Assembly (NCBI GenBank): GCA_017431625.1
Contig: JAFRKQ010000004.1
Coordinates: forward strand, 1-40,244
Length of the DNA: 40,244 nt
DNA from: a bacterium
GTDB taxonomy: Bacteria; Patescibacteriota; Microgenomatia; UBA1400; PJMF01
Reading direction: 5' to 3'
This document shows positions 2,773-37,625 of the stretch, one piece after another. The stretch's first letter is position 1. The number at the start of each line of letters is the position of its first letter. The position numbers were made by a program, and so were the translations under genes. Below the pieces are notes generated by a model. It made no database searches. It worked only from the letters and a program-made list of their open reading frames with translations, and had not been told where the DNA came from.

Positions 2773-3555
2773 CTAAGTGCGAGCACTTTCTTGCTCTTGC
2801 TTGTCCATATAGCATTGGATCACCTCATCAGGATCGCCGACTTTTTCCAAGTGACCATAGTTAATAAAAGCCGCGCGATCACACAAGCTACTCACATGTT
2901 CCAAGCCATGACCAACATAAATAATCGTCTTACCTTGATTTTTAAAATCAGTGATTTGCTGATTGCACTTTTTGCGAAAACGGGCATCACCAACACTTAA
3001 AATTTCATCAACCAAAAGAATGTCAAAAGGCACATGGATCGCCACGCTAAAAGCCAAACGGGTATACATGCCAGAGCTATAGTGTTTGACTGGATCATCA
3101 ATAAAATCCCCAATCTCACTAAAGTCAATAATGCTCTCCACCAAAGGCAAGGTCTGTTTTTTGGTCAGTCCCAAAATTGATGCGTTTAAAAAGATATTTT
3201 CGCGCCCAGTCATATCCGGATGAAAACCAGCCCCCAGCTCAATTAAAGGTGTAATCCGACCATGGACTTGTACGTCGCCGCTAGTGGGTAGTGATACTCT
3301 CGCAATTAACTTCAAAAGGGTACTTTTGCCCGAACCATTAGGGCCAACCACCCCAAAAGTTTCCCCTTTTTTGATGTGTAAATCAATGTCTTGTAGCGCC
3401 CAAAAAGAATCTACCACACCCTTTTTGCCACCGCGAAAAAAGGCCGGCAACATCTCTTTCATCGTCCGTTGTCTTTGGCGATGAAACATCTTGGAAACAT
3501 GATTGATATCGACCGCAAACTCTGGTGTTTCTGACATACTAGACACTATCGGCAA
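2773..3555 (-). CDS. Polysaccharide/teichoic acid ABC exporter, ATP-binding subunit (Wzt/TagH-like)
   Basis: This ATPase would energise export of a lipid-linked surface polysaccharide with the permease encoded just upstream. The 260 residues show Walker A GPNGSGKS (residues 71-78), the ABC signature YSSGMYTRLA (~158-167) and Walker B ILLVDEILSVGD (~178-189). It lacks the C-terminal carbohydrate-binding domain of the longer Wzt proteins, so it resembles the short TagH/RfbB type. The start is uncertain. A TTG at 3555 overlaps the permease by 17 nt and has GGAGG before it, but that GGAGG lies in permease coding sequence. The ATG at 3537, one nt after the permease stop (MSETPEF), is equally plausible. 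It is co-transcribed with the permease. The family assignment is secure; the exported polymer is unknown. Confidence 0.93.
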   Translation of the reverse strand: MPIVSSMSETPEFAVDINHVSKMFHRQRQRTMKEMLPAFFRGGKKGVVDSFWALQDIDLHIKKGETFGVVGPNGSGKSTLLKLIARVSLPTSGDVQVHGRITPLIELGAGFHPDMTGRENIFLNASILGLTKKQTLPLVESIIDFSEIGDFIDDPVKHYSSGMYTRLAFSVAIHVPFDILLVDEILSVGDARFRKKCNQQITDFKNQGKTIIYVGHGLEHVSSLCDRAAFINYGHLEKVGDPDEVIQCYMDKQEQESART

Positions 3556-4324
3556 ATTGCCCCTCCAACTTTTTGAAAAAACGATAACCCCACGCGCACA
3601 CTACCAGTGACAATACCAAACCGATAGCCAGCGAGCGGAAATTGGGCGGATCCACACCCAAAATCACTTGACGATAAGCATTAACAAAAACCGCCATCGG
3701 ATTAATTTGGAAAATCCAGCGATATTTACTGGGAAAAATATCCGCATCATACATCACTGGTGTCAAATACATCCAGGTCATTACCACTAAATTGAGTAAA
3801 TGACGGACATCGCGATAAAATAAATTGGCGGCGGCTAAAAACAAACTCAAACCATAAGTAAATAAAAATTGGATCACAAAAATCGGCACTACCCACAAAA
3901 CATGCACTGTCACCCCGTGTCGATAAAAAATCATCATCCCAATCAAAATAATTGAAGCAAACAAAAAGTCAACTACCCGTGCCAGCATTCGCGACAAAAC
4001 CAAAATCTCTCGCGGAAAATATATTTTTGACAATAAACTCGCACTCCCCACCAAAGCCTCAGCACAAGAAGTGAGTGATTGCGAAAATAAATTCCACGGT
4101 AACAAGCCAGTAAACAAAAATAGTGGGTAAGCAACACCTAAATTTTTGTTACCAAAAATATTGACAAAAACAAATGACATCACCAACATCTGAATAAAGG
4201 GATTGAGAATCACCCAAAAATAACCGATGACTGATTGTTTATAGCGTTGAGCCAACTCGCGCGCTGTCAATTGCCCCAAAAGTTCGCGATATTGTTCATT
4301 GGCAAACACTTCAAAAAAACGCAT
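3539..4324 (-). CDS. Polysaccharide ABC exporter, permease subunit (Wzm/TagG-like)
   Basis: This is an ABC-2 type permease of about 261 residues with about six membrane segments. It begins MRFFEVFANEQYRELL and contains the typical sequence YKQSVIGYFWVILNPFIQM. It pairs with the ATPase that follows directly. I chose ATG 4324 over an upstream in-frame ATG at 4381, because TATAAT (4331-4336) sits 6 nt before 4324 and the 19 extra residues would be read from promoter and operator DNA. The operon diverges from the glycosyltransferase at 4492. The shared intergenic region carries three regularly spaced dyad boxes that probably regulate one or both units. Confidence 0.92.
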   Translation of the reverse strand: MRFFEVFANEQYRELLGQLTARELAQRYKQSVIGYFWVILNPFIQMLVMSFVFVNIFGNKNLGVAYPLFLFTGLLPWNLFSQSLTSCAEALVGSASLLSKIYFPREILVLSRMLARVVDFLFASIILIGMMIFYRHGVTVHVLWVVPIFVIQFLFTYGLSLFLAAANLFYRDVRHLLNLVVMTWMYLTPVMYDADIFPSKYRWIFQINPMAVFVNAYRQVILGVDPPNFRSLAIGLVLSLVVCAWGYRFFKKLEGQFADSV

Positions 4325-4330
4325 GTGGTT

Positions 4331-4336
4331 ATTATA
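4331..4336 (-). promoter_or_regulatory. -10 box of the ABC exporter operon
   Basis: Extended -10 (TGG then TATAAT), 6 nt before ATG 4324. The -35 position (4354-4359) is poor, which fits a promoter that needs an activator bound to the boxes further upstream. Confidence 0.6.
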
Positions 4337-4375
4337 CCACAAGAAAATAGGTTTTGCGCAGTAGTTTGTTATAGT

Positions 4376-4428
4376 AGACACTGTCTAAAATATTTTAGAC
4401 AGTGTCCATTTTTTATTAGACAGTGTCT
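4376..4428. promoter_or_regulatory. Operator array: three AGACAnTGTCT dyads at 21-bp pitch
   Basis: The boxes are 4376-4386 (AGACACTGTCT), 4397-4407 (AGACAGTGTCC) and 4418-4428 (AGACAGTGTCT), centred on 4381, 4402 and 4423. Their centres are exactly 21 bp apart, two helical turns. Boxes 1 and 2 together form a perfect 30-bp palindrome (4377-4406). The array lies between two divergent transcription starts. No regulator gene is recognisable nearby. Confidence 0.75.
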
Positions 4429-4479
4429 ATTATTTACTTCAATTGACCAATAACTCTCGTCTCTATTGACAGGATACGG

Positions 4480-4485
4480 TATAAT
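4480..4485 (+). promoter_or_regulatory. -10 box of the glycosyltransferase gene
   Basis: TATAAT ends 6 nt before ATG 4492, predicting a leaderless mRNA. No convincing -35 box is present. Confidence 0.55.
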
Positions 4486-4491
4486 ACAGAC

Positions 4492-5655
4492 ATGAAACCA
4501 AAATTGTTGCTTATTAGTGCCATCGCCCCTTTCCCTGCCACCAGTGGTGGAGCAACGCGTATGTACTACACCCTCAAATATTTAAGTCAAAAATACGAGC
4601 TGTATTTTTTGAGTTTTGGTGATGATATCACCGATGATGACGCTACCAACTTTCTTAATCAACATTGTGCTTTCTGGAAAATATATCCACTCAAAAAGCG
4701 CAGCTTATTATCTGGACTACCTTACTTTTTTTCCTGTTGGCAATCAGACCGACTAGAAAGAATGATCGGCAAAATCCTAGACGAACACCACATCGAAAAA
4801 ATCAGACTCGAGTTTACCCAAATTGCCTATTTGCGCCGCTTTTTACCCAGAGGCATACCCGTTACTTTTGTCGCCCATGATATTTCTACTATTAGCTTTC
4901 GCCGTCGCCAGCAGGAGAAAATTGCCTTAAACTCACCCTTAACTTGGCTGCGCGCAGGTATGGCTCATGCCAATACTATTGAAATTACCGCTTTTGAAAA
5001 AATGTGGTTGCCGCTTTTTGATGAAGTCGTGGCTGTCTCCGCCCATGATGCTGACAAGTTGCGTCAGCTTTTTGCCCTCAAAAATGTCCGCTTGGAGCCC
5101 AATGGCATTGACCACATTGATTTTTTGCCGGCCAGCACTCGCTCGCAATTAACTTGTGGCTATATTGGCTCACCGATGCACCCGCCAAATCGTGAAGCCA
5201 TTAATTTTACCCAGCAGCAAATACTGCCACAATTGACCCAACAAAATGTTGACTATCATTATTATTTGGCTGGTTGTGATCATGAGCCTAGCGTCAATCC
5301 CCAGATCACTATTTTGGGTCAGTTGGCACAAACGCACCAGTTTTACTCCCAAATTGACTTTTTGCTGGCCCCAATTTTTGCCGGCAGCGGCACGCGTGTC
5401 AAAATACTCGAGAGCTTAAGTCAGGCTATTCCCGTCATTACTACCCCTATCGGCGCCGAAGGCCTCAATCTTCACTCGCCGTTTTTGCAGATCATTGACG
5501 CTCGCGATCGCAGTCAGCTCGCTCAAGAAATGAGTCGGCAACTCGTGAGTCTCAAAAATAATTATCAGCGTCTTTTTGCTGACCATGAGAACCGTCAGCG
5601 TCTCAAAAAACAACTCAAGCCCTACCTATGGCAACGCAGCTTTGCTTATAGTTGA
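4492..5655 (+). CDS. Glycosyltransferase, family 4-like (group 1)
   Basis: This 387-residue protein is a GT-B fold glycosyltransferase that probably adds a sugar to a cell-surface glycan. The N-terminus (LLLISAIAPFPATSGGATR) is the usual first strand and glycine loop of the acceptor domain. The C-terminal part has FAGSGTRVKILESLSQAIPV followed by TPIGAEGL (roughly residues 300-330), the nucleotide-sugar-binding signature of group 1 enzymes. There is no membrane segment. It diverges from the ABC exporter operon and probably acts in the same pathway. The TGA stop lies 18 bp from the convergent membrane-protein gene. The sugar specificity cannot be told. Confidence 0.9.
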   Translation: MKPKLLLISAIAPFPATSGGATRMYYTLKYLSQKYELYFLSFGDDITDDDATNFLNQHCAFWKIYPLKKRSLLSGLPYFFSCWQSDRLERMIGKILDEHHIEKIRLEFTQIAYLRRFLPRGIPVTFVAHDISTISFRRRQQEKIALNSPLTWLRAGMAHANTIEITAFEKMWLPLFDEVVAVSAHDADKLRQLFALKNVRLEPNGIDHIDFLPASTRSQLTCGYIGSPMHPPNREAINFTQQQILPQLTQQNVDYHYYLAGCDHEPSVNPQITILGQLAQTHQFYSQIDFLLAPIFAGSGTRVKILESLSQAIPVITTPIGAEGLNLHSPFLQIIDARDRSQLAQEMSRQLVSLKNNYQRLFADHENRQRLKKQLKPYLWQRSFAYS

Positions 5656-15839: not shown

Positions 15840-15954
15840 CATTTTTTAAAAGTAGACAAAATGTGAACAATTTAAGATTTATGTTAAACGCGTGTTAAAC
15901 GCCTACATCTGGTTTTTGGTGACAAAAATGGCGTTTTTGTTATTTGAGTACATC

Positions 15955-18506: not shown

Positions 18507-18926
18507 ATGATAAAAAAATGGCGTTTTGATAAGTTAAAAAGTTTTTTTGTGACCAAAGACAATTCTTTTTGTCCGGCGACAGTTTTGTCAAGCACTGTTT
18601 TTAAGTTGCAAGACATTAATCCCGACGGCAGCGGTGGCTTGCACATTAATTCCAATCCCGGTCTGCTTTTGCGCAATGTTTTGACACTCACCATCACTGT
18701 GGCTGCTTTGTTGACACTTTATCATTTGATCATGGGGGCGATCCACTGGATTCTTTCTGGTGGTGACAAGGGCAAAGTCGAGGACGCGCGCAACCAAATT
18801 TTTGCGGCAGTCATTGGGATTTTGATTTTAGCGTGCACTTGGGCTATTTTCCAACTAGTCCTCACGATTGCTTTTGGCACTGATGCTAGTGGGATTGCTT
18901 TACCCACGCTTGTTGATGGTATTTAA
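18507..18926 (+). CDS. VirB2/TrbC-like pilin family protein 1 (139 aa)
   Basis: The C-terminal half is the conserved two-helix core of the CPR-type T4SS-pilin family. It has a membrane segment (~55-77), then the loop ILSGGDKGKVEDARNQIFAA and a second membrane segment (~95-118). The loop is nearly identical to that of the third copy (ISSGGDKGKVEDARNKI). Oddly, the N-terminus (MIKKWRFDKLKSFFVTKDNS) lacks the clear signal peptide of copies 2 and 3, so processing may differ or it may stay in the membrane. It is a single gene, leaderless, facing dusB. In VirB2-type systems such proteins form pili; whether these polymerise is unknown. Confidence 0.82.
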   Translation: MIKKWRFDKLKSFFVTKDNSFCPATVLSSTVFKLQDINPDGSGGLHINSNPGLLLRNVLTLTITVAALLTLYHLIMGAIHWILSGGDKGKVEDARNQIFAAVIGILILACTWAIFQLVLTIAFGTDASGIALPTLVDGI

Positions 18927-18960
18927 AATTATTCGTATTTGTTTTCGCCAAGGTGAGACT

Positions 18961-19012
18961 GCCGAGCTCCGCACATAGCTCGGCACTAGAGTGCACAGCT
19001 CCGCGCGGAGCT
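18961..19012. repeat. REP-like GC-rich palindromic element
   Basis: Hairpin GCCGAGCT (18961-18968) / AGCTCGGC (18977-18984), then the perfect palindrome AGCTCCGCGCGGAGCT (18997-19012). It sits between the convergent pilin 1 and dusB genes, so it could act as a bidirectional terminator or a 3'-end stabiliser. Confidence 0.6.
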
Positions 19013-19035
19013 CGGCAACAAAATAGTATTGATTT

Positions 19036-19986
19036 TTATTTAATTAATGGTTGCAAGATCGTCTCCACCTGTGCGGGACTTTCAGCTTGCATCAGCTGTG
19101 AGCGCCAACTTTTGGCTTCCGGGAAATTAGCAATGTAAGCCGCTAGATGTTTGCGCATCGGCACAAAAGAATACTTATGGCGCGTGTGATATAAATCGGC
19201 AAAAAGTTGGCTGTGCTCAATGGCGACTTGCGCGCGCTCACTTAATGAGGGCACATGATCGGTAAAAACCCACGGATTGCCCAAAGCCGCCCGACCAATT
19301 AAAGCGCCGTCTAGTCCATAGTCGTGAATCGCTTGTAGGGCCTGTGCGCGTGAGTGAAGATCGCCATTGCCAAAAAGCAATGTGGACGGCGACAGCTGAT
19401 CGCGATACTGGACCATACGGCCGATAGTCTCCCAATCAGCGGTGCCGGTATAGCCTTGTTTGAGCGTGCGACCGTGAATCGTTAGGCGCGCTGGATGGAG
19501 TGTGAGTAAAAATGGGATCCAGTCATCGGCGCTGTTGTGTTCATAACCAATTCTGGTTTTGATACTGACTGGCAACTCAGGCTTAAGCTCACGCACAGTC
19601 TTTTGGACACAGCCAACAATCTCACGCGCCAGCTCGGGAGTCTTGATCATTGACGCCCCCGCTCCAGAATGAACTACTGTTTTGGCCGGACAACCAAAAT
19701 TAATCTCCACGCCACTAAAACCCAAAGCGATAATGTCACGGGTGCACTCGGCGAAATAAGCCGGTGTGACGCCGTAAATCTGTGCAATCAATGGCTGTTC
19801 GCGCGCATCAAACTGCAAATCCGCCAGCAACCGTTCACGGGCGTGATGCCAGCCCTCAACATTGACAAACTCAGTCGTCAACAAATCAGGCTGACCATAC
19901 TTTTTGGTGATCAAACGCATAGCTTGATCAGTGACCCCATCCATCGGGCTCAAACCAAGTTGTGGTGGCACTGCTGACACTTGCAT
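19036..19986 (-). CDS. dusB: tRNA-dihydrouridine synthase
   Basis: This flavoenzyme reduces uridines in the tRNA D-loop. The 316 residues start with the FMN-barrel motif LGLSPMDGVTDQAMR and include the catalytic cysteine in NFGCPAKTVVHSGAGA (C99) and the barrel segment FGNGDLHSRAQA. The length is usual. Which Dus subfamily it belongs to (DusA, B or C) cannot be decided firmly; DusB is the usual bacterial ancestor. ATG 19986 follows an AT-rich region with TATATA just 2 nt before the ATG (TTGACG 17 bp further up). It lies antisense between pilin genes 1 and 2. Confidence 0.92.
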   Translation of the reverse strand: MQVSAVPPQLGLSPMDGVTDQAMRLITKKYGQPDLLTTEFVNVEGWHHARERLLADLQFDAREQPLIAQIYGVTPAYFAECTRDIIALGFSGVEINFGCPAKTVVHSGAGASMIKTPELAREIVGCVQKTVRELKPELPVSIKTRIGYEHNSADDWIPFLLTLHPARLTIHGRTLKQGYTGTADWETIGRMVQYRDQLSPSTLLFGNGDLHSRAQALQAIHDYGLDGALIGRAALGNPWVFTDHVPSLSERAQVAIEHSQLFADLYHTRHKYSFVPMRKHLAAYIANFPEAKSWRSQLMQAESPAQVETILQPLIK

Positions 19987-20083
19987 ACTATATATAATAG
20001 TATATCATACGCGTCAAGTAAAAGCATCATGCCTGCCAAGGCAAGTCAACTTATCATTGACGCGGCTGTTTGTCAGTTGCCTC

Positions 20084-20112
20084 TTGTCAGCGGGCTCCTG
20101 CTGGTGTATAAT
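20084..20112 (+). promoter_or_regulatory. Promoter of VirB2-like pilin gene 2
   Basis: TTGTCA (20084-20089), 17-bp spacer, TATAAT (20107-20112), 7 nt before ATG 20120; leaderless type. Confidence 0.7.
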
Positions 20113-20119
20113 AGGGTCA

Positions 20120-20515
20120 ATGTGGAAAAAGTTTACTCAGCGGTTTTTGGTGATAGTCAGTAGTTGCTGGCTACTGGGTGCGGGTTGCTTATCGGCAGTT
20201 CATGCTTACGGTCTTGGTGAGTTTGCCCCCTACTCCTCAGCGCCCGCTGATGCCAATCATGCTGGCCAGAGTATCGTGCAGATCGTCATTGTGGTGGCCG
20301 CTTTACTCACCTTGGGTTATTTGATCTGGGGCGCGATCGACTTGATCAAAGCTGGCAGCGACAAAAGCAAGCTGGAAGCAGCTCGCAATAAGATGCTTTA
20401 TGCGGTTATTGGCATTCTGATACTCGCCTCAACTTGGGCGGTCTACGAACTAGTCATTAAAGTCACCCTTGGTTCTAATCTTAGTGACGTCAAGCTGGAA
20501 AAGCTCAACAATTAG
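20120..20515 (+). CDS. VirB2/TrbC-like pilin family protein 2 (131 aa)
   Basis: The start is ATG 20120 (MWKKFTQRFLVIV), chosen from the promoter; the frame is open further upstream but that stretch is promoter and dusB upstream DNA. The protein has a signal peptide ending near AVHA, a short mature N-terminus, and the two-TM pilin core with the loop IKAGSDKSKLEAARNKM between the membrane segments. Its core is more diverged from copies 1 and 3, with Ser-Asp-Lys-Ser replacing Gly-Asp-Lys-Gly. Two cysteines lie in the signal region. It probably forms a functional set with the neighbouring copies. Confidence 0.82.
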   Translation: MWKKFTQRFLVIVSSCWLLGAGCLSAVHAYGLGEFAPYSSAPADANHAGQSIVQIVIVVAALLTLGYLIWGAIDLIKAGSDKSKLEAARNKMLYAVIGILILASTWAVYELVIKVTLGSNLSDVKLEKLNN

Positions 20516-20643
20516 TGTTGTTTATTGTGTCCCTTTGATTTTTTGCTCATTTTTGTGTATATATGAGACATTATGAGGATTTTTTTTGCACAAATTTGCT
20601 GACAAATCCGTAAAATTGCTCTCATTTTTTCTCAAAATGGGTG

Positions 20644-20649
20644 TATAAT
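20644..20649 (+). promoter_or_regulatory. -10 box of VirB2-like pilin gene 3
   Basis: TATAAT about 74 nt upstream of ATG 20723, with no good -35 box at the standard distance. Of the three pilin genes, only this one has a real 5' leader. Confidence 0.5.
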
Positions 20650-20660
20650 ATATCAAAGCA

Positions 20661-20702
20661 TCATTTAGACTCTAAAATTGTTAAATTTTCGATGCTAAAT
20701 GA
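20661..20702 (+). other. Hairpin in the leader of pilin gene 3
   Basis: Outer stem TCATTTAG (20661-20668) / CTAAATGA (20695-20702) encloses an inner AAAATT / AATTTT stem (20674-20679 / 2084-89 within the same block). It lies just after the predicted transcription start and before the Shine-Dalgarno AAAGG (20717-20721). It may stabilise the mRNA. Confidence 0.45.
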
Positions 20703-20722
20703 ATAAAAACTAAAAGAAAGGC

Positions 20723-21145
20723 ATGATGAAAAGCTTTTTGAAAAAATGCGCTGCCAGTGTCGGAATGGCGGTGATTGCGACCGCAGGGATGCTCTCACCG
20801 GTCATGGCAGAAGATGCCAGGGATTTACTCAAAAACATGGATCCTACCCAAAACAACAGTGGCATCAAAATCTCTGCCAATGCTGGCCAATTGGCGCGCA
20901 ATATTATTACTATTGTCTTTATCGTGGCTGCTGTGATGACTCTTTTTTATCTCATCATGGGGGCGATCAATTGGATTAGCTCTGGTGGCGATAAGGGTAA
21001 AGTGGAAGACGCCCGTAACAAGATTACCTCTGCCGTCATTGGTCTTTTGATCTTAGCGGCCGCTTGGGCGATCTACCAGTTGGTGATCACCATTGCTTTT
21101 GGCACCAACAGCGGCGGGATTACTATCCCCTATTTAGCAAGCTGA
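20723..21145 (+). CDS. VirB2/TrbC-like pilin family protein 3 (140 aa)
   Basis: This copy has the most typical form. A signal peptide (MMKSFLKKCAASVGMAVIAT...) probably cleaves after SPVMA. About 35 mature polar residues follow, then membrane segment 1, the loop ISSGGDKGKVEDARNKI and membrane segment 2. The end (GTNSGGITIPYL) closely matches copy 1 (GTDASGIALPTL). There are two adjacent ATGs; the second, at 20726, is better spaced from AAAGG. Its long leader, Shine-Dalgarno site and perfect UUCG-loop terminator suggest this is the abundantly expressed, major subunit, while copies 1 and 2 are leaderless; that is inference. Confidence 0.88.
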   Translation: MMKSFLKKCAASVGMAVIATAGMLSPVMAEDARDLLKNMDPTQNNSGIKISANAGQLARNIITIVFIVAAVMTLFYLIMGAINWISSGGDKGKVEDARNKITSAVIGLLILAAAWAIYQLVITIAFGTNSGGITIPYLAS

Positions 21146-33014: not shown

Positions 33015-36000
33015 CTAATTAATTTTGGTGATGCGGGCAAAACCATCACCGGTGTGGCCAGTTTCGCTGCCGCCAGTGGGATTTGGAAATTCCTGATCGC
33101 CGGCCAGTGTGGTGGCATTATCTAGATAATATGAATCTGGAACCGTCCAAGTTATGTTAGAAGCACCACTACCATTAGTTTTCCAATTCTCATAAGTGGT
33201 AGCAGTATAAATCCAACCAGAACCGCCACCGCCACCGCCTTGACCATTGTTGGCAGAAATACCGCCATACCAGCCAGCTCCACCGGCTCCTCGATCATAA
33301 GCATTAGCGCCGGAAGTTAAGTCTGGTGGACCACCAACACCTTGAGCGTAACCGCTAATTTGTGTGCCTGCAGTGTTAGCTTTTTGCTTGCCATCGACAT
33401 AAGCATTTTCACCTTCACTACCACCACCAAAACCGCCGGAACCATCATCACCGCCAAGATAAGTGCCACCAGCGTTATCAGCACCGCCACCGGCACCGGC
33501 CACAATCAGTGTACCGTTGGGATTCCAGGTAGTAGTAGCTAGATTACTTTGCAATGAAATATGGGTCATACCACCGCCACCATAAGAACTGGTGTTGCTC
33601 GAGACACCATTGGCGCCACCATTAAAACCTCCATTATACGAAATACCTCGACTGCCAACAAAAACGTATAATGTAGTGCTGCTACCCAAGGTCACTTCTC
33701 CATACGAATAGCCGCCACGACCAGCGTGACTGGGAGAAGTAGCCACATTGGTGCCACCACCTCCCTGCGCTCCCCACACCTCAAGTCTATAAGTTCCACT
33801 ACTAGCTGCCGTAAAAGTATACGCACCTGGTGTGTCAAAGTCAGCACTACTAGCCGTGACTGAGTCTTGACGAAGGGCACACTTACCATTGATGGCAGTA
33901 TAGCTAGTCGTCAATTCCTCGCTAGTAGGATCGTAATAATACCACCCCTCATCACAAACACATGTACCCAGATCATCCTGGTCATTACTGGAATTAGCAC
34001 CGCACTTGAGATAGGAGCAGGATTCATCTGCTGTCTGGGTTGTGGTGGCGTAGGCCGCGCCATAGGCATAGCCAGAGGCGCAGGTACAATTACCATTATT
34101 GCCATAGGCAGCGACGCGTTCGCCTGTACACTTCTGGTAGGTACAGGCAGTGGTGGCCGTGGCGTAAGCCGCACCAGAGCTATTGCCATAATAGCCCGTG
34201 GGGCATGCAACGTAATTGCAAGACTGGTTGAGGACATTGGTGAGGGTGGCACCAGCGTTATTGTAATAGTAGCCACTAGCGCAAGTACACTTGGTGGCAT
34301 TGTTGGTGTAAGTCTCTACGTGAGAGCCGGTACACTTTTGGTAAGCGCAGTCGCCAGTACCGGGGCTGGTACTGCCAGAAGTGTCGGCATAAAAGCCCGA
34401 GACACAAGTACAGGCAGTATTGGATGAATTGTAGGCATTGGCACCACAAGTCAGCACGCAAGCACTCGCACTATCGGACCAGTGATAGCCGCTGTCGCAA
34501 GTGTGCGTGTCACTAGAGGTGATCAGGGTGATTTTGGCCACCCCATTGCCAGTATGCCCCGTGCCACGAGTGTAGTAGCCGCCGCTGGGGTTGGGCATGG
34601 GTTCTTGGTAACCGCGGACATTGGTCCAAGTGAAGCCGGCGCCATCGATCATGACGGTATCAGTGAAGACCTTACCAGAATAGTGCGTAGAGCAGGCGTT
34701 ATTGGTCGTGCCAGTGGTACAGCCAGATTTGGCCGTGGAGCTGGAGGCTGAGGTGACGGCCACGCAGCCAGTGTGACCGGAGATATAGGAGGAGCCACCA
34801 GCGGCAGGGCCGCCTTGATCTCCTGTGCCGCCATGATTACCTCCATAATAACCGCCACCGCCACCGGCATATCCTTCGCCGCTAACAGTTTTACCAGGAT
34901 AACCCGTACCAAAACTATAACCCGTTGTTTGAGTAACATTGGCAGTATACATGCCACCATATCTTTTTATGTAATAGACGTTTTGAATGCCACCTCCAGC
35001 GACACCTGGACCACAATACTTCGATGTATCACTACCTGGCAAGGCTCCGCCACCACCGCCTCCAGCGGCGACCATAATCCGTGAGCGTAATGAAGTAACG
35101 TTATTCCAAGTGCTTTTAGTCATACGAACATCCGTCGCTCCTCCTCCGCTGCCACCGGGTGCGTTATAATTACCACTATCGTAGCCGCCAGCGCCGCCAC
35201 CATTAAAACCGCCTGTAACCGTCACTTTAGAACCGCTGGTATTATCCACACCACGACCGCCAAGATAAAAGTACAAATTCGTTCCTGCTGTTAATGTAAT
35301 TGTGCCAGCAGTATAAGCACCATAACCGCCATTAGTGCTCGTGGTAGGATATCCACCTAGTCCTCCTTGCGCGCCCCAGAGTTCAATCCGATACGTGCCA
35401 CCGGTCTGAGCTGTAAACGTATAGACACCGGGAGCGCTAAAGGTGGTGGTGTCTGTTGTGATGCTTTGTTGAATTACGGGGCAGCTACCATTTACAGCCG
35501 TATAGCTGGTAGTCATACTAGTGGTGTAATATCCGCTATTACAGTTACATTGAGCGGGATTGTTGACGTCATTGGTAGAATTGGCACCACATTTGAGGTA
35601 TGCACATGATTCTGCAAGTGTATTGGTCGTAGACGCATAGCTGCTGCCGTAACCCCAACCGGTCGCACACGTACATTTTGTCGTCCCACTTGTGGAGTAC
35701 GCCGACACGTGACTACCAGTACATTTCTGATAATTACAGGTACTCCCTACAGCAATATAGGTATTGCCGGAGGTATTGGAGTAGTAGCCCTCGGGGCAGG
35801 TGGTGTAGTTACAGCTGTAGGCATTGGTGGGATTGGCTGTATCGAGGCGATTGGGAGTGGTGGTCGCACCAGAAGTATTGTAGTAGTAGCCGCTGGCACA
35901 ATCACAAGTCTCACTCACGCCCACATAAGTAGCCGCCACGTGGTCCCCAGTACACTTCTTGTAATTACAGCCATTAGTGCCTGTAGGTGTGGTGCTGCCA

Positions 36001-37355
36001 TTGGTGTCAGCGTAGTAGTTGTCCAGACACTGGCACGTATTGGCACCCGTGTGATAGGCATTGTCGCCACAGTCTGGTGCACACTGACCCAGACTCGAGA
36101 TCCAGCTGTAGCCGGCTGGACAGGCAGACATATTGGGAGTAGCGACGAAAGTAATCCGAGCGTAGCCATTACCAGTGTGACCCACGCCACTGGCATAGTA
36201 ACCACCAGCGGGATTGGGCATCGCCTCCAGATCATTGCGGCTATTGGTCCACAGATAGCCGGCGCCATCGATCATTTTGGTATTGACAAAGACCTTGCCA
36301 GAATAGTGGACTGAGCAGGTATTATCACTACTGCCTGTCTCGCAGCCAGTTTTGGGGAGAGTAGAGGTCGTCGAGCGTATTGCCACACAACCAGTGTGGC
36401 CGGAGATATAGGAAGAACCGCCAGAGCCACCCTGACCATAGCCATTGCCACCACCATAATAGCCACCACCACCGCCACCACCCCAGCCGGAAGTATTGGC
36501 CTGGATCGCATAACCAAAGCTACCGTTTCTAGCGGTAGAGTTGGCCACGCCGTCCTGACCACCACTGGTTTGAGTCGCCCCCAAAGGTGGGGCTGAGTTA
36601 AAGTCGCCCTGAAAGGCACTACTGATCAAACCACCAGCGTGACCGCCAAAGACAGTATTGGTCGCATTGGTACTACCAGCCCCACCGCCAGCCACCATGA
36701 TGCGTGAGCGGAGCGAGGTGCTATTATTCCAGCTACCACTGGTGAGACGGACATCAGTGGCACCACCGCCACCAGAAGAGTGATCTGATGAACTATTTCC
36801 ACCAGAAAAACCGCCGCCGTTCCAGCCACCACGAGTATTGGTACTAGCGGCATTGTATGGTCCTTCTTGACCGACATAAAGATATAAATTATTGCCACGA
36901 TTGAGCCGGATCTCGCCGCGAGTATAGCCACCTAAGCCCGTAGTATTGGTAGCATGATTGACATTACCCCCACTCGCACCCCACAATTCCACCACGTAAT
37001 AGCCGTCACTGGGAGCAGTAAATGTCTGATAATTGCCGGTGTACTCATAGGTGGTCGTCTCACCAGCGCACGCTTGATAAAAGCTCGACCAAGTAGTGCC
37101 CTCCGGGCACATACCTTTAGCCATAAAGGTATTGTCAGAGACTTTGACAAATTGCAGACCGTCCACTTGTACGAGTTTGCCCGTGGATAGTGAGTCCAGT
37201 TTCATGGTCTGATCTTTGGTGCCAGCATGAGTCTGTGGCCACCAGCTGATCGCCCGATCTGCCGCCGCTCGGCCATCAATCGTGATTGCTGCCAGTAGCC
37301 CCCAGCTGAGAGTCATCATTGCCGCCAAAAACTTCCGCCCATAAACACTGGACAT
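33015..37355 (-). CDS. Giant secreted protein: three Gly-rich domains and two Cys-rich blocks (1446 aa)
   Basis: The start is ATG 37355 (MSSVYGRKFLAAMMTLSWGL) with AAAGGA five nt upstream; the open frame to 37451 is leader. A signal peptide covers ~1-32. Glycine-rich domains lie at ~102-403, ~631-945 and ~1163-1446. They share ELWGA.GG, GGGATDVR, SLRSRIMVAGGG, GGSSYISGHTGC and a closing HTGNG.A.IT, the pattern of the ALK/LTK-type glycine-rich domain (PF12810-like). Between them lie two Cys-rich blocks (~411-630 and ~951-1162) built from repeats such as CTCASGYYYN and YQKCTG.HV. There is no C-terminal anchor. It is likely an adhesin or surface coat needing many disulfides. The third Gly-rich domain is the most diverged. 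Confidence 0.88.
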   Translation of the reverse strand: MSSVYGRKFLAAMMTLSWGLLAAITIDGRAAADRAISWWPQTHAGTKDQTMKLDSLSTGKLVQVDGLQFVKVSDNTFMAKGMCPEGTTWSSFYQACAGETTTYEYTGNYQTFTAPSDGYYVVELWGASGGNVNHATNTTGLGGYTRGEIRLNRGNNLYLYVGQEGPYNAASTNTRGGWNGGGFSGGNSSSDHSSGGGGATDVRLTSGSWNNSTSLRSRIMVAGGGAGSTNATNTVFGGHAGGLISSAFQGDFNSAPPLGATQTSGGQDGVANSTARNGSFGYAIQANTSGWGGGGGGGYYGGGNGYGQGGSGGSSYISGHTGCVAIRSTTSTLPKTGCETGSSDNTCSVHYSGKVFVNTKMIDGAGYLWTNSRNDLEAMPNPAGGYYASGVGHTGNGYARITFVATPNMSACPAGYSWISSLGQCAPDCGDNAYHTGANTCQCLDNYYADTNGSTTPTGTNGCNYKKCTGDHVAATYVGVSETCDCASGYYYNTSGATTTPNRLDTANPTNAYSCNYTTCPEGYYSNTSGNTYIAVGSTCNYQKCTGSHVSAYSTSGTTKCTCATGWGYGSSYASTTNTLAESCAYLKCGANSTNDVNNPAQCNCNSGYYTTSMTTSYTAVNGSCPVIQQSITTDTTTFSAPGVYTFTAQTGGTYRIELWGAQGGLGGYPTTSTNGGYGAYTAGTITLTAGTNLYFYLGGRGVDNTSGSKVTVTGGFNGGGAGGYDSGNYNAPGGSGGGATDVRMTKSTWNNVTSLRSRIMVAAGGGGGGALPGSDTSKYCGPGVAGGGIQNVYYIKRYGGMYTANVTQTTGYSFGTGYPGKTVSGEGYAGGGGGYYGGNHGGTGDQGGPAAGGSSYISGHTGCVAVTSASSSTAKSGCTTGTTNNACSTHYSGKVFTDTVMIDGAGFTWTNVRGYQEPMPNPSGGYYTRGTGHTGNGVAKITLITSSDTHTCDSGYHWSDSASACVLTCGANAYNSSNTACTCVSGFYADTSGSTSPGTGDCAYQKCTGSHVETYTNNATKCTCASGYYYNNAGATLTNVLNQSCNYVACPTGYYGNSSGAAYATATTACTYQKCTGERVAAYGNNGNCTCASGYAYGAAYATTTQTADESCSYLKCGANSSNDQDDLGTCVCDEGWYYYDPTSEELTTSYTAINGKCALRQDSVTASSADFDTPGAYTFTAASSGTYRLEVWGAQGGGGTNVATSPSHAGRGGYSYGEVTLGSSTTLYVFVGSRGISYNGGFNGGANGVSSNTSSYGGGGMTHISLQSNLATTTWNPNGTLIVAGAGGGADNAGGTYLGGDDGSGGFGGGSEGENAYVDGKQKANTAGTQISGYAQGVGGPPDLTSGANAYDRGAGGAGWYGGISANNGQGGGGGGSGWIYTATTYENWKTNGSGASNITWTVPDSYYLDNATTLAGDQEFPNPTGGSETGHTGDGFARITKIN

Positions 37356-37625
37356 TGTTTCCTTTCGTTTCGCGTTTAATGTCTTTGCCGAGTGTCTCCA
37401 GCTACTAAGAGCGAGCGACACGGCTCCACGCCTAGCTCGGCCGGCTAACATAGCAAGGTACTAAGAAGGTCCAAAGACTTTCATGTTCTCAAGCGCGTTT
37501 TGACCGAGCAATGTCCCTCGCTCTATCGCTCGCTCGAGTCCTACTCGCATTGGTGGTGGTAAAAACATTCATGCTCGTTTTTATTGGTATCCCTTCTCGA
37601 CTACTTACTATGTTAGCTTGTTTTT
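37356..37625 (-). promoter_or_regulatory. Long leader and probable promoter of the Gly/Cys-rich gene
   Basis: TAGACA followed after 16 bp by extended -10 TGATAAAAT near 37630-37650 would start transcription about 265 nt before ATG 37355. The 347-bp gene-free stretch 37356-37702 holds this leader, which contains GC-rich self-complementary words (GAGCGAGCGAT, a degraded GAGCT/CTCGG element at 37422-37444). No known riboswitch is recognised. Confidence 0.4.

Follow-up and report, generated by a model that had tools for sequence, protein, structure and literature searches.

A three-box dyad array between divergent polysaccharide exporter and glycosyltransferase genes: predicted sites of a lineage-specific transcription factor

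In phage lambda OR, three operators lie between divergent promoters, overlapping those promoters and standing beside the repressor gene. Promoters and regulators of the bacterial group considered here have, to our knowledge, been little studied, and a literature search of incomplete coverage gave no match for the motif described below or for any regulon motif in this phylum. For CRP, class I activation takes place at -61.5 as well as at other class I positions (PMC6301791). The window analyzed in this study, a stretch of 40,244 nucleotides that constitutes contig 5 of a 1.14-Mb genome in 32 contigs, carries three dyad boxes between a polysaccharide exporter operon and a glycosyltransferase gene. 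Like the operators of lambda OR, these boxes are three dyads with a spacing of about two turns between divergent promoters, but they overlap no promoter and adjoin no repressor gene.

The box array and its flanking genes

The sequence itself and a pattern search placed box 1 (AGACACTGTCT, extended TAGACACTGTCTAAAATATTT) at 4376..4386, box 2 (AGACAGTGTCC, on the reverse strand TGGACACTGTCTAAAATATTT) at 4397..4407 and box 3 (AGACAGTGTCT) at 4418..4428, all as unstranded features, so that positions 4376-4428 read AGACACTGTCT-AAAATATTTT-AGACAGTGTCC-ATTTTTTATT-AGACAGTGTCT. The box centers at 4381, 4402, and 4423 give a pitch of exactly 21 bp. Three occurrences of AGACAnTGTCT with this exact spacing had been claimed in the initial annotation; the positions and the pitch stand, whereas box 2 is imperfect, ending in TGTCC with one mismatch to the pattern. 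Boxes 1 and 2 do form the perfect 30-bp palindrome that had been described, since 4377..4406 is identical to its own reverse complement. Dinucleotide shuffling of the intergenic region 4325-4491 gave one GACANTGTC box in 63 of 20,000 trials and two boxes in none, in agreement with the earlier judgment that such regularity is very unlikely by chance. The dyad array is real and non-chance. It is best read as a predicted protein-binding site, and cooperative binding on one face of the DNA is plausible. The 21-bp pitch could also stem from tandem duplication at this place, because the 21-bp units 2 and 3 are identical at 18 of 21 positions; units 1 and 2 agree at 14 of 21.

To the left of the array, on the minus strand, lie the genes for a Wzm-like ABC-2 polysaccharide exporter permease (3539..4324; Pfam PF01061, E 3.4e-19) and a TagH/Wzt-like ABC exporter ATPase (2773..3555; PF00005), which resemble teichoic-acid and O-antigen exporters. 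The permease matched the NCBIfam galactan Wzm/RfbD model with E 3.3e-20 and the ATPase the NCBIfam TagH model with E 9.3e-58, each below the cut-off of the model. The gene to the right, on the plus strand, encodes a family-4/1 glycosyltransferase (4492..5655; PF13692 and PF13439) that is TIGR03087-like (E 1.6e-27, below the cut-off). The earlier placement of the array between a polysaccharide exporter and a glycosyltransferase is supported. A long open reading frame, 3539-4381, starts at an upstream GTG (4381) and overlaps box 1; the true start of the permease is likely ATG 4324. Both divergent promoters have a perfect TATAAT directly before the ATG, that of the exporter operon within an extended -10 (TGGTATAAT, 4331..4336, minus strand) and that of the glycosyltransferase gene at 4480..4485 on the plus strand.

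No DNA-binding regulator family was recognized by Pfam among the searched window proteins, a few small or unclear reading frames and the left-edge gene excepted, which accords with the earlier remark that no regulator is encoded nearby. Elsewhere in the window, a 1478-residue protein with an ALK/LTK glycine-rich domain (33015-37451, minus strand; PF12810, E 3.7e-118) is large for so small a genome, and three small proteins at 18507-21145 match PF18895, a model for type IV secretion pilins, with one of them just below the cut-off.

Occurrence of the box in the genome and in other organisms

Motif counts were obtained by pattern scans of the genome. GACASTGTC occurs 27 times, compared with 5 for the reversed control, and GACASTGTCTA gave 15 strand matches versus 1. 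Pairs of GACASTGTC at a pitch of 20-24 bp were found in the window array and nowhere else in the genome. With a strong site defined as the extended pattern KRGACASTGTCTAAWWWTT with at most one mismatch on the better strand, 12 strong copies were recovered from eight loci: the three window boxes, C12:5021, C12:5242, C12:5376, C12:97882, C17:25658, C20:26976, C23:24420, C25:35112, and C1:36305. The genome search proposed in the initial annotation therefore supports an enriched box whose paired array is confined to this locus, but the box as such is not private to it. All eight loci are intergenic, in a genome whose sampled DNA is about 84% coding and 16% non-coding. The 12 strong copies align to a 19-bp asymmetric consensus, TRGACASTGTCTAAWWWTT, that is T(G/A)GACA(G/C)TGTCTAA(A/T)(A/T)T(A/T)T, in which one T, several positions beyond the dyad, is invariant. 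A diverged box copy lies at C1:39710. Contig C1 also contains a duplicated cluster (L278 2158-6627) of membrane-protein genes of no assigned family, with a diverged box copy in each unit.

The initial annotation had proposed looking for a conserved array upstream of orthologous genes, and had named a 21-bp spacing not conserved in relatives as refuting; by that test the idea fails, in that relatives showed neither the array nor an enrichment of the box. Enrichment was absent from 37 relatives, among them a member of the same genus whose genome is incomplete (about 76%). In a sample of 239 further genomes of the phylum, no tandem pair at a pitch of 20-24 bp occurred, and no box was found upstream of the glycosyltransferase in five relatives. 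In two family members, the exporter and a related glycosyltransferase gene are adjacent and converge on each other, and both genomes thus lack an orthologous divergent region. The missing enrichment in relatives and the lack of a pair in the 239 genomes indicate that the element is lineage-specific. Lineage specificity does not show that the array is non-functional, but with no conservation in relatives there is no cross-species evidence of selection beyond the duplicate on contig C1.

Many actinobacteria carry the same dyad in pairs, mostly at a pitch of 23-24 bp, over the start codon of a TetR gene, and in some proteobacteria the dyad lies near TetR genes; a TetR-type protein can therefore evidently use it. 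Its presence both in actinobacterial TetR operators and in the genome studied here is probably convergence, and the actinobacterial matches, being TetR operators over start codons, were rejected as the same system and kept as a parallel only. Several of the actinobacterial TetR genes whose start codon is covered by a TAGACASTGTCTA pair (L060-L139) stand beside a gene for a small protein that is pyridoxamine-phosphate-oxidase-type-like, and the two are a candidate for a conserved autoregulated pair, the family having been named by eye. Box pairs, mostly at a 21-bp pitch, were also present on at least 120 viral contigs. These were discarded as irrelevant, since the main family is coding sequence in which GAC ACT GTC ... 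GAC AGT GTC specifies DTV...DSV, seven codons apart. The phage protein family itself (viral contigs L287-L366) encodes SLVDTVGKVIDSVHTSEEEK, and its DNA mimics a box pair at a 21-bp pitch.

The search for the regulator with the TetR_N model gave one weak candidate in the genome, on contig C12 (L209:1372-2031), separated by about 9 kb from the closest cluster of boxes and distantly like DhaS and FabR. Its own promoter, read by eye, has a different inverted repeat, TTGGACATT-N9-AATGTTCAA, over the -10, and for this reason the protein was rejected as the regulator of the boxes; the half-site TTGGACA that the inverted repeat has in common with the box makes it a weak lead only. Four matches to HTH_3 proteins were also obtained, with no link to a box.

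Distance from the box to the promoter

Each distance was counted between the final base of the 11-bp box and the first T of a perfect TATAAT. Box 3 is 51 bp from the TATAAT of the glycosyltransferase gene, and the same 51 bp separate C1:36305 from that of a membrane-protein gene and the diverged duplicate C1:39710 from its own, whereas the C20 box is 52 bp from the TATAAT of tspO and the C25 box 53 bp from the one upstream of a CYTH-like gene. A spacing of 51-53 bp is thus found at five promoters in four loci. When random intergenic points of the same genome were used instead, four of eight loci fell into one 3-bp bin in 0.013% of trials (P = 1.3e-4), the bin having been chosen post hoc. A genome scan for GACANTGT-N40-69-TATAAT returned eight matches, five of them within 3 of the 30 gap lengths; these were the same five sites and none was new. 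The C20 and C25 boxes keep their promoter distance although the sequences between box and -10 are unrelated. Two units of the C1 cluster retain the 51 bp, and in the duplicate the box has kept its place while identity across the spacer has fallen to 34/51. The asymmetric flank faces the gene at some promoters and points away from it at others, and because the spacing holds in either orientation, it is the symmetric dyad that is positioned.

Boxes 2 and 1 lie 72 and 93 bp from the glycosyltransferase -10 (after the 51 bp of box 3). Not all loci follow the 51-53 bp rule. The exporter -10 stands 39 bp from box 1, 60 bp from box 2, and 81 bp from box 3, which misses the rule by about one turn, and the C23 box, which precedes a tRNA-23S rRNA region, has 75 bp between itself and a -10. 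No TATAAT accompanies five of the 12 strong copies (four on C12, one on C17), which lie in repeated sequence between convergent genes.

With TATAAT taken as -12 to -7 and the start positions deduced from the -10, the box centers would be at approximately -69 to -71 at the five promoters and at -57, -78, and -99 on the exporter side. All five centers would thus lie upstream of -60 at a fixed spacing, as expected of class I positions. At the window promoters and elsewhere no box overlaps a -10 or a start, the nearest being 39 bp from a -10. Because the box is centered at about -69 to -71, a class I-like activator fits better than a blocking operator. The term operator in the initial annotation is accordingly less likely to apply, in its repressor sense, than that of an upstream activator site. 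A missing -35 was considered as a sign of activation and rejected, as -35 quality is not distinctive: 29 of 44 TATAAT promoters in the genome score at most 3/6.

The predicted activator and its alternatives

On balance, we consider it probable that the three boxes are predicted sites of one lineage-private, dimeric, sequence-specific transcription factor that would act in a class I-like manner and co-regulate the genes on both sides. The presumed dimer would recognize the dyad TRGACA-S-TGTCTA together with its A/T-rich flank. From a single box some 69-71 bp upstream of the predicted start, the bound protein could touch RNA polymerase and leave the -10 uncovered. Within the window, the three boxes at a pitch of two helical turns would stack dimers on one face, serving both divergent promoters: box 3 (about -69) would act on the glycosyltransferase gene and boxes 1-3 (about -57, -78, and -99) on the exporter operon. 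An array stacked in this way would co-regulate the exporter and the glycosyltransferase. The cis-element is most likely a small regulon motif, a known kind of element. A more far-reaching version, which we put forward as tentative, is a lineage-specific activator regulon recognizing TRGACASTGTCTAAWWWTT that may have spread partly with a private repeat, been recruited by surface-glycan, tspO, and membrane-protein genes with an unvarying spacing to their -10, and culminated in a three-site, enhancer-like array common to the exporter and the glycosyltransferase.

The main rival is a repeat-borne sequence with no regulatory role; the repressor array and the RNA hairpin discussed below are less likely. 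The box would then belong, as one module, to an intergenic repeat that is dispersed and possibly mobile, its presence at promoters would be incidental, and the triple would have arisen by local 21-bp tandem duplication. We regard this as rather unlikely, although several observations speak for it. A repeat with the pattern GTTAAAC-GTTAAAC-TCTGG (GTTAAACGCGTGTTAAACG...TCTGGTTTTT), present in about 45 copies in the genome and absent from 41 other family genomes, has its TCTGG at 48, 48, 47, and 48 bp, respectively, from the boxes C12:5376, C12:97882, C20, and C25; the C12 and C17 boxes have further flank in common, and within the triple, unit 3 is a near-copy of unit 2, as noted above. Since some boxes stand between convergent genes or keep a fixed spacing to the repeat, part of the spread of the box is repeat-borne. 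However, no such repeat adjoins the window triple or the C1 and C23 boxes, the distance to TATAAT is kept across unrelated intervening sequences in both orientations, and the copies of the C12 cluster all run in the same direction rather than being inverted like terminal repeats; no IS-like pair of inverted ends, as at the termini of a MITE or IS, was present among the listed sites. The resemblance to REP/BIME and MITE repeats is that some of the box copies adjoin an intergenic repeat of many copies, frequently where genes converge, whereas the window array lies outside such a repeat, terminal inverted pairs are lacking, and promoter spacing is kept.

The dispersed intergenic repeat, GTAGACAAAATNTGTACAATTT...GTTAAACGCGTGTTAAACGYRYACATCTGGTTTTTGGTGACAAAAATGG...TTTTTGT, with its about 45 copies in the genome (e.g., L272), is present in the window at 15852-15940 (plus strand). 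It was absent from 41 family genomes and from the viral contigs, often stands 3' of genes or between convergent genes, and has a single orientation on contigs C11, C19, and C15. Further G+C-rich, hairpin-like intergenic repeats, some adjoining boxes, are CAAATATTTAGCCGGGCGCTC...AAATATTTG and AGCTCCGCGCGGAGCTCGGC (L041 2080-2200, L049 1890-2000, L229).

A repressor in the manner of TetR or phage CI, whose dimers would fill the three sites and shut both promoters by looping or by blocking upstream contacts, we consider improbable. The likeness to phage lambda OR, with three dyads at a 21-bp pitch between divergent promoters, favors it, as do the actinobacterial pairs of the same dyad that overlap a TetR start codon, but the boxes leave every -10 and start free. 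The autoregulated TetR operators of Streptomyces and relatives (TAGACASTGTCTA pairs) have the same 13-bp dyad, often paired, yet they sit on the TetR start codon, mostly at a 23-24 bp pitch, unlike the window boxes, which have no adjoining TetR. An autoregulatory operator would lie at its own TetR gene, but no TetR was present among the searched window proteins. A terminator or structured RNA, in which the 30-bp palindrome would form a hairpin in RNA or DNA, is very improbable despite a terminator-like match with hairpin and T-run on the plus strand (4377-4406 followed by CATTTTTTAT) and an RNA fold z of -7.4, as any palindromic protein site folds, no gene reads in from the left on the plus strand, the palindrome lies between divergent promoters, single boxes elsewhere (9-bp dyad, 1-nt center) cannot fold in this way, and Rfam at the comparable loci searched gave only tRNA and 23S rRNA.

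The favored reading, a class I-like activator with a small regulon, offers a motif with fixed promoter geometry, derived from sequence alone, as a direct handle on surface control in small-genome bacteria, and the same motif allows the spread of regulatory sites with intergenic repeats to be put to the test. Its closest parallel is with class I activator sites such as those of CRP at lac-type promoters, where a dimer dyad likewise keeps a set distance to the -10 and is centered far upstream of the -35 (PMC6301791). The window boxes differ from the CRP sites in that their sequence is not that of CRP, and in that three of them are stacked and two promoters would be served.
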